Made by a program: the position numbers and the translations under genes
Source of the DNA: Pseudomonadota bacterium
GTDB taxonomy: Bacteria > Desulfobacterota > Syntrophorhabdia > Syntrophorhabdales > Syntrophorhabdaceae
Direction: 5' to 3'
Length of the DNA: 45,633 nucleotides
Assembly (NCBI GenBank): GCA_026388215.1
Contig: JAPLKF010000012.1
Span: 1-45,633 of the forward strand
Notes under the pieces: model-generated
The model's database searches: none
Seen by the model: only the letters and a program-made list of their open reading frames with translations
What the model was told of the DNA's origin: nothing
Part shown: piece after piece, positions 5,240 to 43,300 of the stretch
Layout of the letters: every line of letters starts with the position of its first letter
How positions within the stretch are numbered: the stretch's first letter is position 1

Positions 5240-5256
5240 GGAACCTCCAGTACTTC

Positions 5257-5350
5257 AGTGAATAGTTGTTAGTGAATAGTAAATAGTAAAATCGAAATCT
5301 TTGGCTCTTTGTTTTTTTGCTATTCACTATACACTATTCACCATACACTG
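5257..5350. repeat. Heptamer repeat hairpin, locus 2
   Basis: The gap between HdrA2 and mvhD holds five heptads of the type AGTGAAT (5257-5291), then a short spacer, then four heptads of the complementary type CTATTCA (5320-5347). The right arm, reverse-complemented, matches the left arm over about 36 positions with scattered substitutions. The RNA could therefore fold into a long imperfect hairpin within the operon transcript. Confidence 0.75.
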
Positions 5351-5353
5351 TTT

Positions 5354-7044: not shown

Positions 7045-7171
7045 GAGTTCGGAGTGAGGAGTTCGGAGCGTGAAACAGTTCGGAGTTCGGAGACTTAAGC
7101 TGTTTTGACTTCTGACCCCTGAATTTTGAATTCTATATGTAAACTCATCACTCATAACTCACCACTCATCA
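7045..7171. repeat. Two heptamer repeat arrays, locus 3
   Basis: One array of GAGTTCG-type heptads lies at 7045-7094 and a second of ACTCATC-type heptads at 7143-7171. The last unit of the second array includes the stop codon of HdrA1 (7169-7171). The arms are partly complementary. Nothing else is visible in the 141-bp gap. Confidence 0.7.
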
Positions 7172-8449
7172 CTGATTTATATATTCCAGGCATCTTGAAG
7201 CAGCTTCACCACCTGAGGCAACAGTATCAGGTACATCCTTTGGTCCCGAAGCCATTCCACACACAAATACACCTTCCATATTTGTCTTCGATGGGGCAAT
7301 GGGGTCTATTTTTACAAAACCATATTCATCCCTTTCGATAGAGAGCATATTGTAAAGTTCTTCTGAGCCCTTGTGAGGTCTTACACCTGTTGCGAGGATA
7401 ACAAGATCCGCCTCAATCTCCTTCAGCTCACCACTTAACATATCCTCAACTCGAACGAGAAGCCCATTTTCTCCTTTTATGATCTCGCCGGGTATACCCC
7501 GTATATAGTAGGTACCGCTTTCTTGTGTGTTCTTATAAAACTCTTCGTAATTCTTCCCGTAGGCCCTCACATCGATATACGAAACGTAAACCTCCGCATC
7601 CTTTATCCTGTCCTTCACTATACTTGCATGCTTAGCGGTATACATGCAACATACCCTCGAACAGAACCGGGCTCCGCTTAATCTGTCCCTTGAACCTACG
7701 CACTGGATAAAGTAAAAACGTTTTGGCACTTTCCCTTTAATTATCAATTCGCCGTCTGTCGGTCCGGTGACCGAGCAGATTCTCTCGAATTCAATCCCTG
7801 TCATTACCCCATCAAGAATACCATATCCATATTCCCTTTTTTCCGTGGGGTCATAGAGGTCAAAACCTGGCGCTAAAATGATGGCATCGAAATATGACTC
7901 GAGTGTTTCCTCTTTCTCATCAAAATTGATAGCTCCGGTTTCGCACGCCTGAAGACACGCCTTCTTGCATTTGCCCTTTGATACAAAAAGACAACCCTTT
8001 CCGTCAATGATATACTTAAGTGGTACTGCCTGGGGAAAGGGTATATAGATAGCCGCCCTTTTCCCCATACCCAGGTTGAACTCATCACGTAGCCGGCCTT
8101 TCATAACGCATGCATCTGCGCAGAGCCCACAGGCCGTACATTTTTTTACATCTACAAAACGCGGTGTCTTGATGATCTTTACGTTAAAGCCTTTCCCCTT
8201 ATGGTGTGCCTCGAGAGGCTTTGCCATGGTTATGAGGTCTATACGAGGGTTTAGCGCCACTTCCACCATCTTCGGCGTTAGTGTGCATGAAGAACAGTCG
8301 AGGGTGGGAAAGGTTTTATCGAGCTGTATCATCCTTCCACCGATGGAAGGACCTTCCTCAAGCATTGTTACCTTAACACCGCAGGAGGCAAGTTCAAGTG
8401 CAGCGGTAATACCACCAATACCCCCACCGACTACGAGAACCTTTTTCAC
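7169..8449 (-). CDS. hdrA: HdrA-like flavoprotein, short form with internal ferredoxin motif (HdrA1)
   Basis: A 426-residue HdrA/QmoA-like protein. It begins directly with the FAD-binding GGGIGG (8-13), then the DKTFPT / CSSC segment typical of HdrA. An internal [4Fe-4S] motif follows (C104, C107, C110, C114), and further cysteines at 153, 161, 165 and 169 probably hold a second cluster. The QCVGSRD and SRVCC hallmark is present, and the protein ends at the conserved region GxFVCG..SGPKD. It lacks both the N-terminal domain and the C-terminal ferredoxin of HdrA2. With HdrA2 and MvhD it resembles a QmoA-QmoB pair. It follows etfA across a gap filled by heptamer repeats. Electron exchange with EtfAB is a reasonable inference from position only. 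Confidence 0.85.
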   Translation of the reverse strand: MKKVLVVGGGIGGITAALELASCGVKVTMLEEGPSIGGRMIQLDKTFPTLDCSSCTLTPKMVEVALNPRIDLITMAKPLEAHHKGKGFNVKIIKTPRFVDVKKCTACGLCADACVMKGRLRDEFNLGMGKRAAIYIPFPQAVPLKYIIDGKGCLFVSKGKCKKACLQACETGAINFDEKEETLESYFDAIILAPGFDLYDPTEKREYGYGILDGVMTGIEFERICSVTGPTDGELIIKGKVPKRFYFIQCVGSRDRLSGARFCSRVCCMYTAKHASIVKDRIKDAEVYVSYIDVRAYGKNYEEFYKNTQESGTYYIRGIPGEIIKGENGLLVRVEDMLSGELKEIEADLVILATGVRPHKGSEELYNMLSIERDEYGFVKIDPIAPSKTNMEGVFVCGMASGPKDVPDTVASGGEAASRCLEYINQ

Positions 8450-8476
8450 GTGAGAATCTCCATAATAAACACAGCC

Positions 8477-8532
8477 TTTAGCCGTCAGCTATTAGCCCTT
8501 AGCCTTTAGCTGATAGCGGATCGCTGAGTGCT
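8477..8532. repeat. Heptamer repeat array, locus 4
   Basis: Eight heptads stay in perfect register (consensus near NTTAGCC, drifting to GATAGCG and GATCGCT) across almost the whole gap between etfA and HdrA1. TCAGCTA and TAGCTGA inside it are inverted, so a hairpin is possible. Confidence 0.8.
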
Positions 8533-20036: not shown

Positions 20037-20747
20037 TTGGAACAAGAATTAAAAACTATTTACGAAGCACAAAAAATAAATATACAAATCATTGAAAATG
20101 AAAGAAAACTACTATTGGCTCCTAAAAAGATTGAGGCAATGGATAAGGAGATTAAGGGGATAAAGGATAAGGTTGAAAAGGAAAAAGGGATGATAGAGGA
20201 ACTTGAAAAAGAAAGAAAGAGAAAAGAGAAAGAGCTTGATGTTGAGAAGGAAAAGATAAAAAAGTTTGAGTCCAGGCTCTATGAGGTAAAAACAAACAAG
20301 GAATATCAGGCATTACTCAAAGAAATAGAAGGGGCAAAAGAAACAAACGACAAGACAGAAGAAGAGATTATAATAATAATGGAAAAGGTTGAGGAATTGA
20401 AAAAGGATTTTGAATCATCACTCACACACCTTAAGAAACGGGAAAAAGAATCAGAAAACGAAAAAAACAGGTTAGAAAAAGAAATAAATTCAATGGACAA
20501 AACCATTATGGATCTGAAACAATCAAGAGATAAATTACTTTCTACAGTGAGTGATAATATAAGGGCAACATACAACACGCTTATAGAAAAAAGGAATGGG
20601 ATAGCAGTAGTAAATGTAAAAAACGGTGTCTGCTTCGGGTGTTTCATGAATATTCCTCCACAACTTTTTATCGAAGTAACAAAAAACAGACAACTCATAT
20701 TGTGCCCCAGCTGTAATAGAATATTCTATTTTATAGACGAAGAATGA
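20037..20747 (+). CDS. Coiled-coil protein with C-terminal C4 zinc ribbon
   Basis: A 236-residue protein. About residues 10-180 are an almost continuous charged coiled coil (Lys/Glu rich). The C-terminus has a zinc ribbon CFGCFMNI ... LCPSCNRIFYF, as in the CT398 / HP0958 family of bacterial coiled-coil zinc-ribbon proteins. Family members in other bacteria bind RNA or assist secretion and flagellar assembly; the role here is unknown. The start is TTG at 20037, supported by GGAGG 7-8 bp upstream. The end overlaps the RNase H start by 4 bp, a neighbourhood common for this family. Confidence 0.82.
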   Translation: MEQELKTIYEAQKINIQIIENERKLLLAPKKIEAMDKEIKGIKDKVEKEKGMIEELEKERKRKEKELDVEKEKIKKFESRLYEVKTNKEYQALLKEIEGAKETNDKTEEEIIIIMEKVEELKKDFESSLTHLKKREKESENEKNRLEKEINSMDKTIMDLKQSRDKLLSTVSDNIRATYNTLIEKRNGIAVVNVKNGVCFGCFMNIPPQLFIEVTKNRQLILCPSCNRIFYFIDEE

Positions 20748-21148
20748 TGGAATGGCATATATACATTGACGGGGCATCCTCAGGCAATCCAGGAGAGTCA
20801 GGAGCAGGTATTATAGTTTTTGATAACAATGGTAATGAATTATTCAGGGATAGTATATACCTTGGGCAAATGACGAATAATATGGCGGAATATGAGGCCC
20901 TAATTTTTGCACTTCAAAAGGCCAAAAAATCATTGATAAAAAAGGTATCTGTCTATACAGATTCCCTTCTTGTCACAAACCAGATACATGGAAAATATAA
21001 GGTTAAAAATACAAAATTAAGGAAATATGTGGAAGAGACAAAAAATATTATAAGAAATTTCAATAGTTTTGCGTTAAAATATATACCAAGGGAAGAAAAC
21101 AAAATAGCAGATAAACTTGCAAAGGATGCAGTAAATAAAAAGGGGTAG
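20744..21148 (+). CDS. rnhA: Ribonuclease HI-type protein
   Basis: A 134-residue RNase H fold protein that should cut RNA in RNA-DNA hybrids. The four acidic catalytic residues are in place: D in YIDGASSGNPG (near 7), E in NNMAEYEAL (near 48), D in YTDSLLV (near 70) and D in NKIADKLAKDA (near 126). The basic protrusion of E. coli RNase HI is missing, as in the short archaeal/Bacillus-like type. It overlaps the zinc-ribbon gene by 4 bp, and its last codons overlap the 5' end of RNase P RNA. Confidence 0.9.
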   Translation: MMEWHIYIDGASSGNPGESGAGIIVFDNNGNELFRDSIYLGQMTNNMAEYEALIFALQKAKKSLIKKVSVYTDSLLVTNQIHGKYKVKNTKLRKYVEETKNIIRNFNSFALKYIPREENKIADKLAKDAVNKKG

Positions 21149-21604
21149 ACGGGTGGTCGCCCCGTTCAACGGGGAGGAAAGTCCGGGCATCAAAGGGCAG
21201 GATGGTCCTTAACAGGGACTGGGGGTAACCCTAAGGAAAGTGCCACAGAAAATACACCGCCCCCCTCGCTTTTAAGCGAGAGTGACAAGTTAAGGGTTAA
21301 GAGTAATGAGTTAAAGATTCTTTAACTTTAAACTCCGAACTCGAAACTTCGAACTCCAAGCAGTAATGCTTGGCGGGGTAAGGGTGAAAAGGTGAGGTAA
21401 GAGCTCACCAGCACTTAGGTGACTAAGTGGCTTGGCAAACCCCATCCGATGCAAGGCCAAAAAGGGAGCTGTCAGAAATGACAGCGAGGATAGCCCATCC
21501 TTCAACCCGGGTAGGCCGCAAGAGATTCAGGGTAACCTGAATCCGTGAGAGAAATGACCACCGGCTGGCTTGCCAGCGACAGAATCCGGCTTACAGTCTA
21601 CCCC
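21141..21604 (+). ncRNA. rnpB: RNase P RNA, bacterial type A, with enlarged P12
   Basis: The catalytic RNA of RNase P. Conserved blocks appear in order: GAGGAAAGTCCGGGC near 21172, CCACAGAAAATACACCGCC at 21243-21261, GGTAAGGGTGAAAAGG from 21377, GGTAAGAGCTCACC-like sequence near 21396, and AGAATCCGGCTTA near 21581. P1 forms from GGGGTAGAC (21141-21149) and GTCTACCCC (21596-21604). A T-run follows. The length of about 464 nt exceeds the usual 350-400 because the P12 region (about 21262-21376) is 115 nt instead of the roughly 25 nt in E. coli. The 5' end overlaps the last 8 bp of rnhA, so the RNA must be cut from, or started inside, that transcript. Confidence 0.93.
21287..21361. repeat. Heptamer repeat array inside RNase P RNA P12, locus 7
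   Basis: Left arm: four heptads of type GAGTTAA (21287-21314). Right arm: complementary heptads of type TCCGAAC (21320-21361). They meet in a small hairpin (GTTAAAG/CTTTAAC). Two more hairpins flank the array (21265-21280 and 21356-21373). The array shares its GAGTTCG-type unit, in reverse complement, with locus 3. Confidence 0.8.
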
Positions 21605-21613
21605 TTTTTTTTT
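21596..21613 (+). terminator. RNase P RNA 3' end and T-run
   Basis: The P1 3' strand ends in CCCC and is followed by nine T residues (21605-21613), consistent with intrinsic termination directly after P1. Confidence 0.6.
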
Positions 21614-40276: not shown

Positions 40277-40369
40277 TTGAAGATTTGAACCTGTGACCTT
40301 CCTGTCCTGTGTCAAGGACCGACGCCTATCTGTGACCTTCCTGTCCTGTGTCAAGGACCGACGCCTATC
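40277..40369. repeat. 39-nt dispersed repeat, copy 2, and 39-bp tandem duplication at the hsdR end
   Basis: 40277-40315 matches 37256-37294 (38 of 39). Separately, 40292-40330 and 40331-40369 are identical 39-bp tandem copies. The right copy includes the last codons and stop of hsdR, so the gene's 3' end was duplicated. Confidence 0.9.
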
Positions 40370-43300
40370 TCTATCCCAGACTTTTCCGCCCAATCTCTGG
40401 CGATCATTGTTGCCTGCTCAAGTACGGTTTCGGTTGCCTTTTTCTGTTTGTCAGGCGGATACCCATATTTTCGAAGAACTCTTTTTACCGCTACTCTCAG
40501 TTTAGCCTGGACACTTTCTCTTAATGTCCAGTCTATGGTTACGTTGTTGCGGATGGTATTTGCGAGTTCTCTTGCGATTGTTCTCAGCGTCTCATCCCCA
40601 AGCACTTTGACTGCGCTGTCGTTGACTTCGAGGGCATCGTAGAATGCAAGCTCGTCATCTGAGAGGTTTAGCTTTTCCCCTCTCCTGTTGGCTTCGCGCA
40701 TGTCTTTAGCGAGCTGTATGAGTTCCTCAATGACTTTTACGGTTTCTATTGTTTTGTTCTGGTACTTTCTTATGGATTTTTCGAGCATCTCGGCAAAGGA
40801 TTTCGACTGGATGAGGTTCTTCCTGGACCTTGTTTTTATCTCGTCGTTCAGCAGTTTTTTGAGGAGTTCGAAGGCGAGGTTTTTGTGCTGCATACCCCCT
40901 ATTTCTTCGAGGAACTCGTCTGAGAGTATTGAGATATCGGGCTTTTTCAGTCCCAGGGCGTCGAATATGTCCACAACTTTGTCTGAGACTACTGCTTTTG
41001 AGATGATTTGCCTGATGGCTGAATCGAGCTCTTCCTGTGTCTTGCTTGTCGTGGTGGTATTCTTTATGAATTGTGACTTGACGGCTTGAAAAAATCCTAC
41101 GTCATCCCTTACCTTTAAGGCTTCTTCGTTTGGTACTGAGAGTGCAAACGCCAATAATAGCTCCGATGTGTGTTTTACGAATCTTTCTTTGCCGTCTTTC
41201 TGTGCAAGTATGTAGTCCATTGCCTCCGCTATTACAGACATTTTTTCTTTTGGCGCTGCCTTGAAGAATTCTTTGTAGTTGAAACTTTCAAAGAGGGCAT
41301 TGACTAACTCGTATTTTTCGAGCATCTTCGCCACTGCCTCTTCCTGATCAATACCGACTTCTTTCCTGTCGCCTTCTGTGTATTCTGACAAAGCCTTTTT
41401 CAGTTCGTCTGCTATGCCTATGTAGTCTACTATTAGTCCTCCTGGCTTGTCTTTGAATACCCGGTTTACCCTTGCTATGGCTTGCATGAGGCCGTGGCCT
41501 CTCATGGGCTTGTCCACGTACATGGTGTGGAGGTTTTTCACGTCAAAGCCTGTGAGCCACATATCCCTTACGATTACTATTCTTAGCGGGTCGTCGGGGT
41601 CTTTCATCCTGTCGCCGATGTCCCGCCTTCCTTGCTTGTTCCTTATGTGTTCCTGCCAGCTTTGGGGGTCGCTTGCCGAGCCGGTCATGATGACTTTGAT
41701 TACTCCTTTGTCGTTGTCTTTGTGGTACCACTCAGGTCTTAGCTTGATGATTTCGTCGTGGAGTTCTACGCATATTCTTCTGCTCATGCAGACTATCATT
41801 GCTTTGCCGTCCAGTACTTTTAGTCGGTCTTCAAAGTGGTTGATTATGTCTCTTGCGATGTTCCTTATGCGCTTTTCGCTGCCTACCAGGGCTTCGAGCC
41901 GTGCCCATTTGCTTTTGAGCTTTTCTTTCTTCTCTACCTCTTCGCCTTCCATTACTTCCTCGAATTCCGGGTCAATCTTTGGCCTTTCTTCGGGCTTCAG
42001 TTCAAGTTTGGCGAGCCTGCTTTCGTAGTATATCCTGACTGTTGCGCCGTCGTTGACGGCTTTTTCCATGTCGTAGATGTCTATGTAGTTACCGAATACA
42101 GCCGGGGTGTTCCTGTCTGCTTTTTCTAAGGGTGTTCCTGTGAAGCCTATGAATGATGCATTTGGCAGGGCGTCCCTCATGTGCCGTGCGAAGCCGTCTA
42201 TGAAATCGTACTGGCTCCGATGCGCTTCGTCCGCTATGACAATTATGTTCCGCCTTTCAGACAATAGCGGGTATGAATCGCCTTTTTCTTCCGGCAGGAA
42301 TTTTTGTATGGTGGTGAAGACTATCCCGCCGGAGGCTACTTTGAGAAGTTCTCTTAGCCTTGCCCTTGTTTCTGCCTGTACGGGGGCCTGCCTGAGTATT
42401 TCCTGGCACCGTCCGAAGGTTCCGAAGAGTTGGTCGTCAAGGTCGTTTCTGTCTGTGAGCAGGACTATTGTGGGGTTGTCGAGGGTGAGGATGAGCTTTC
42501 CTGTGTAGAATACCATGGTGAGGCTTTTGCCTGAGCCCTGGCTGTGCCAGATTACGCCGCAGCGCTTGTCGCCTTTCGGTCTGGATGCTTCTATTGTGGC
42601 TTCTATTGCCTTGTTTACTGCGTAGTATTGGTGGTAGCCGGCAATCTTCTTGTGGGTGGCATGCTCCTCTTTCTCAAAAACGATGAAGTGCCTTATGATG
42701 TCGAGGAATTTGGTCTTCCCGAACATGCCTTTCAGGAGGACCTCCATTGATTTGCTTTTTATCTCTGACTTTATCTCTTTGCCGTCTGTTGTGCGCCAGA
42801 GCATGAACCATTCCTTGCCCGAGGTTATGGTACCTGCGCGGGCTTCCATGCCGTCGCTCACTATCAGGGCTTCGTTATAGTTGAACAGGGATGATATCTC
42901 ATGCTTGTATGTCTGGAACTGGTCGAAGGCTTTCCAGACCGTGGCGCTCTCATCAACAGGGTTTTTTAATTCTATGACTGTAAGGGGGATTCCGTTGACA
43001 AAGACGACTATGTCGGGCCTGCGGTTGTAATTGTTCTCAATGACGGTGAACTGGTTCACTGCCAGAAATTCGTTGTTCTCAGGGTCTTCGAAGTCAAAAA
43101 GCCATACCGTGTCTCCTGCGATGCGCCCGTCCTTTTTCCTGTATTCTACGCCCACGCCGTTGACGAGCATTGTGTGGAATGCCTGGTTATTGACAAGAAG
43201 CTTAGGGCTTTCAGCCCTCAAGACTTTCTTAACCGCCTCCTCTCTTGCTTCTTTCGGAATGTTCGGGTTAATCCTGTCTATGGCCTTTGAAAACCGCTCT

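Follow-up and report, generated by a model that had tools for sequence, protein, structure and literature searches.

Heptameric tandem repeats inside a structured bacterial RNA have been described before. In heterocyst-forming cyanobacteria, STRR heptamers were found within RNase P RNA (Vioque 1997, NAR 25:3471, as cited in PMC2858038), and the P6b stem-loop of the Nostoc tRNA-Leu group I intron consists of heptad repeats, for which whole-stem replacement has been inferred repeatedly (PMC4476775). Dispersed intergenic heptamers are also on record: TAACTGA in Beggiatoaceae (PMC4679880), and GGGAATC in Xanthomonas and GGGGA(C/T)T in Nostoc (PMC4692102).

The locus analysed here resembles each of these systems in part. 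As in cyanobacterial rnpB, the heptad tandem repeats lie inside the gene, in P12; however, Syntrophorhabdaceae, several other phyla and non-heterocystous cyanobacteria are now added, the heptad stem of the present locus is flanked by two hairpins, and the heptamers differ. With Nostoc P6b it shares complementary 7-nt repeats that make up a peripheral stem of a structured RNA, but the RNA is another one and P6b heptads are described in cyanobacteria only (in the part of PMC4476775 used here). The intergenic heptamers likewise form 7-nt tandem arrays through bacterial genomes, sometimes as inverted pairs, whereas the passages of PMC4679880 and PMC4692102 cited here place them between genes and do not describe insertion into a ribozyme. 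Finally, REP and REPIN elements similarly have short hairpins around a variable middle, but in the genomes searched the two hairpins of the present arrangement (hereafter, cassette) were not found dispersed outside rnpB.

The rnpB gene of the window and its P12

The window is the whole stretch of 45 633 nt analysed here (contig JAPLKF010000012.1 of assembly GCA_026388215.1, Syntrophorhabdaceae, Desulfobacterota). Apart from its rnpB gene, the genome (G000) has no RNase P RNA match, and the full-length RF00010 match above the gathering score, together with the conserved core, places the product in class A (Table 1). A T-run lies at the 3′ end of the gene, and the stop codon of the upstream ORF overlaps its start. 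In the cmscan alignment, P12 is the site of a large insert relative to RF00010.

Table 1. Coordinates of rnpB, the parts of its P12 and period-7 arrays outside rnpB (window positions)
Feature	Position	Strand	Basis and remarks
rnpB, class A RNase P RNA	21141..21609	+	RF00010, 296.5 bits, E = 3.9e-96, full model 1-367
ORF, 134 aa, upstream of rnpB	20744..21148	+	ORF list; RNase HI-like by eye
Expanded P12 (121 nt)	21259..21379	+	cmscan alignment and fold
P12 base stem	21259-21263 paired with 21375-21379	+	fold
Hairpin 1	21265..21280	+	fold; equivalents in G005, G016, G213, G118, L142 and L203
Heptad stem	21281-21355	+	fold
5′ heptad arm, AGTGAC AAGTTAA GGGTTAA GAGTAAT GAGTTAA AG	21281..21316	+	period 7 in 18/29 positions, P = 0.00065
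3′ heptad arm, CTTTAACTTTAAACTCCGAACTCGAAACTTCGAACT	21320..21355	+	period 7 in 20/31 positions, P = 0.0001 (shuffle test run on 21320-21357)
Hairpin 2, CCAAGCAGTAATGCTTGG	21356..21373	+	fold; equivalents 3′ of the heptad stem in other cassette-type P12s
Heptad hairpin outside rnpB, AGTGAAT / ATTCACT arms	5256..5351	.	period-7 arrays and complementary arm, P < 0.005
Heptad array ACTCATC, complementary arm nearby	7138..7180	.	period-7 array survey
Period-7 array outside rnpB	8473-8528		period-7 array survey

P12 folds as a four-way junction of the base stem, hairpin 1, a stem of complementary heptads and hairpin 2 (MFE −49.7 kcal/mol, z = −6.3 against dinucleotide shuffles); hairpin 1 is probably the original apical hairpin of P12. 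Within the heptad stem, short helices of mostly 4–5 bp alternate with mismatched steps of 2 or 3 nt. Self-matching at distance 7 in the core of P12 amounts to 41/70, and the remaining periods between 3 and 13 reach 27/71 at most; the whole-core period-7 score was not reached in any of 20 000 dinucleotide shuffles. Each arm taken separately is a tandem, degenerate array of unit 7, as in STRR-type repeats (P = 0.0001–0.00065), and the location in P12 is that of the STRR in cyanobacterial rnpB (by cmscan alignment here, by direct reading of the cyanobacterial P12s). The first-pass annotation had described complementary heptad arms between two small hairpins in a long P12; the RF00010 alignment, the fold it had called for and the shuffle tests all bear this description out, and the period held up under shuffling.

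Two observations concern other parts of the window. The stretch 34968-35339 matches the cspA thermoregulator family (91 bits, gathering score 78) and seems to overlap a coding stretch resembling that of a cold-shock protein; coding similarity may be the source of the match. At 40291-40370, a 39-bp unit occurs in two exact tandem copies.

Heptad P12s across phyla

A total of 84 980 species genomes were scanned for a P12 with ACTNNNNACT in its distal part, which gave at least 118 stretches. Since it is the 3′ arm that this pattern selects, a separate test for period was run on the initial 36 nt of P12, a segment outside its constraint. Identity at distance 7 in this segment was 0.606, against 0.23–0.29 at distances that are not multiples of 7 (79 loci); pairing to the selected motif could lift the former value only slightly. 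A fixed heptad criterion with 1.7% false positives on shuffles was then applied, groups being taken from record titles. Among the matches listed, it was passed by 72/74 Cyanobacteriota, 12/13 Bacteroidota, 9/10 Planctomycetota, 5/6 Desulfobacterota or ‘delta’, 2/2 Nitrospirota, one Nitrospinota and one Thioploca. The Verrucomicrobiota loci L101 and L150 fail the test, and the lone passes from Clostridia (L156) and Aerophobota (L106), unconvincing on visual inspection, were not counted. All 17 representatives checked by cmscan were confirmed as RF00010.

Heptads were read directly in P12 of Nostoc, Calothrix, Scytonema and other cyanobacteria, and the non-heterocystous carriers include Microcystis, Microcoleus, Chamaesiphon and Aphanothece. 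The heptamers differ between lineages, their common part being the AGT/ACT core only, which is itself demanded by the search pattern. Heptad P12s are wider than first thought, occurring in several phyla and not only in heterocystous cyanobacteria. The parallel that the annotation drew with cyanobacterial STRR was right, since heptads are seen in P12 of dozens of cyanobacteria. Its further claim, that the same kind of repeat had entered the same RNA in an unrelated lineage, stands as to the occurrence but not as to a lone second case, several other phyla being concerned too.

In one Bacteroidetes rnpB (L097, 5929-6511, minus strand), a heptad array, ACTGCTAACTGATAACTGA, is not in P12; it lies in an insert of 134 nt that precedes P12 and probably sits in P9.

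Heptad arrays outside rnpB and the folding of the repeats

The genome-wide period survey of G000 covered 266 kb of stretches after removal of two all-N contigs, and the pattern searches covered the whole genome. Period-7 arrays numbered 20 in the 266 kb, whereas none of the other periods between 4 and 24 gave more than six, and a four-unit AGT-heptad pattern matched 132 times genome-wide, compared with 41 times when reversed; like STRR, these repeats are thus dispersed in many copies. The unit GAACTCC of the window's 3′ arm recurs in other G000 arrays (best match 29 nt, 93%, E = 1e-5), and a complementary arm (P = 0.01) accompanies 12 of the 35 dispersed arrays. No full-length donor of the insert was found in the G000 sequence searched, only arm matches, the longest of about 30 nt. 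Over a hand-picked set, genomes with a heptad P12 have the higher heptad load (P = 0.006), an association that is not clear within the phylum (P = 0.086).

A view of the cassette as a dispersed element of the REPIN type found no support: no second hairpin-heptad-hairpin cassette was found in the 11 genomes searched, and no dispersal of the hairpin units in the way of REPIN/REP was seen there, the hairpin 2 motif occurring at most four times per genome searched, with copies outside rnpB that lack the cassette.

Folding differs markedly between the two settings. The P12 heptad stems have a median z of −6.1, with 97% below −2 (109 loci; mononucleotide shuffles), against −2.1 and 51% for the dispersed G000 arrays (35 arrays; best of three windows). 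Since P12 copies fold strongly and dispersed arrays do not always do so, repeats in rnpB persist as stems, whereas repeats elsewhere need not fold. For the AGT heptads of P12, pairing involves the AGT core in 93–97% of cases and the remaining positions in roughly 50–75%. Equality of heptad number between the 5′ and 3′ arms is only moderate (Spearman 0.40; 65% within one unit); therefore our claim about the arms is limited to pairing. The ‘length-neutral spread’ suggested by the annotation is better put as arms that keep folding, given that sister genomes differ by about 60 nt in P12 (see below) and the change is thus not neutral in length.

Turnover and origin of the heptad stems

We consider it probable that the P12 of the window holds a heptad hairpin of the same family as the dispersed arrays, tolerated if it folds and renewed both by slippage and by replacement of the whole stem. 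Such a hairpin would enter P12 and fold as an extra stem, which could be tolerated because P12 lies at the periphery and its distal part is free to vary, and selection would purge copies that do not fold. Renewal would follow two routes. In one, slippage would add or remove tandem 7-nt units in each arm; in the other, recombination or copying during repair would replace the entire stem with sequence from dispersed heptad hairpins. We infer this copying from dispersed hairpins, tolerance rather than benefit of the heptads in P12, and retention of the insert in the mature RNase P RNA.

Alternatively, the heptads may have grown in place, a short P12 having gained a heptad and slippage with selection for pairing having lengthened the arms, with no imported hairpin. 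This would fit the separate homogenization of the arms, as in Anabaena azotica (L132), where (CAGTGAA)n stands opposite (CTGATAA)n and pairing is only via CAGT/ACTG, as well as the single-unit gains and losses reported for Nostoc trnL P6b (PMC4476775). We nevertheless find growth in place unlikely in view of the Nostoc data. Three heptad types (AGTTAGG, AGTGCTG and AGGGAAT) occur in P12 of Nostoc rnpB genes that otherwise differ at 2–4 of 328 compared positions, and when the type switches both arms change together. Full-length dispersed homologues also exist: in N. mirabile, relatives of the AGGGAAT hairpin that are nearly full-length (75–85% identity) lie elsewhere in the same genome, such relatives (75–85%) are present in the N. 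favosum genome too, though its P12 is of another type, and several of the dispersed copies fold as hairpins. For the AGTGCTG type, the genome with an AGTGCTG P12 has 89 matches, versus 3–10 in the three other genomes searched. A nested insertion was noted in Nostoc CCCryo 231-06 (L116), where the palindrome ACAGACGCGATTAATCGCGTCTGT lies inside a P12 heptad arm and is lacking in close relatives.

A Nitrospinota rnpB (L142) also speaks against growth in place. The complete hairpin-heptad-hairpin cassette occurs in it twice, in P12 and near P16/P17, with 3′ arms identical at about 29/30 positions, and its presence in two helices therefore makes growth in place hard to accept. The same arrangement is found in Desulfobacterota, Nitrospirota and Nitrospinota, in which the heptad stem between two short hairpins would behave as a cassette. 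In the L142 gene (7262-7900, minus strand, 639 nt), additional inserts lie close to the 5′ end and in the region of P9. On a broader proposal, which we advance only tentatively, P12 might be a general landing site, in six or more phyla, at which heptad hairpins and dispersed genomic copies are exchanged blockwise as strains or species diverge, and the cassette of the latter three phyla might be a discrete module that moves between ribozyme helices (P12 to the P16/P17 region), possibly even between phyla.

A second alternative is selection for length in P12, to the benefit of RNase P function or stability, heptads being one of several ways of building a longer helix. Long P12s do fold strongly, and they need not be heptads: other lineages of the phylum have long P12s without heptads (L077, L078, L081 and L091), and in the genus of G118 four relatives (G083, G150, G178 and G204) have a three-arm P12 with a non-heptad middle stem. 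The notion that all long P12s are heptads was accordingly rejected, several of those in the phylum being ordinary extended stems; heptad P12s elsewhere in the phylum include G213, G118, G089, G166, G126 and G054. In the family itself, the comparison with relatives' rnpB proposed in the annotation showed that nearly all lack the extension. P12 measures 12–27 nt in the 27 genomes of the rnpB tree except G000 (121), G005 (115) and G016 (73), and the P12 of Syntrophorhabdus sp. PtaB.Bin027 (L177) is identical to that of G005. The three long P12s have a common order of hairpin, AGT...ACTCC stem and hairpin; the period-7 signal is clear in G000 and weaker in G005 (0.40), and the P12 of G016, with about two units per arm, is too short to judge. 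Relatives with the same P12 but no heptads, the finding that the annotation had named as telling against it, did not turn up. In the rnpB core tree built without P12, G016 and G006 are sisters (100/100 support; branches 0.007 and 0.010), and with near-identical cores their P12s measure 73 and 12 nt; whether through gain or loss, turnover of P12 is fast. That sisters so close differ in this way, and that most Syntrophorhabdaceae do without the extension, makes selection for length an improbable explanation.

Two side observations were made in these genomes. No RF00010 match was found in G012 (Syntrophorhabdaceae, listed as 99% complete). Loci L245 and L246 of G016 have a common motif resembling GGGGGCGACC...AGGCGTRAGCCCCGGTAA, for which no Rfam match was found; it is possibly an uncharacterised structured RNA.

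Fragmentation through excised intervening sequences is known in 23S rRNA. The P12 insert could similarly be cut from the transcript, leaving a fragmented RNase P RNA, and some inserts are long near-perfect duplexes and potential RNase III substrates (L122 and L160). The G000 stem, however, is a poor RNase III substrate because a 2-nt or 3-nt internal loop interrupts every heptad, and we give this explanation little credence. A chance pattern or a metagenome assembly artefact, conceivable for a window from a 289-contig assembly, can be practically dismissed, being contradicted by the shuffle tests and by the same feature in isolates and complete genomes, including Calothrix NIES-3974, Pontibacter and Rufibacter.

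Imported, exchangeable heptad hairpins thus remain our preferred reading. In kind, STRR in cyanobacterial rnpB and stem replacement in Nostoc trnL intron P6b are already known. New, as far as we have searched, are heptads in P12 of Syntrophorhabdaceae and of several other phyla, the cassette with its two hairpins, the occurrence of this cassette in two helices of one molecule, and the wholesale switching of heptads in rnpB at 99% core identity. The 1997 observation in cyanobacteria is extended in this way to several phyla. Bacterial genomes commonly contain heptad repeats, for which explanations are poor. For them rnpB, essential and otherwise slow to change, offers a clean clock as well as a clear filter: entire heptad stems are exchanged in the time that it takes two to four other bases to change, and the versions that persist are paired. 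The mechanism by which heptad repeats spread, and their cost, become testable.
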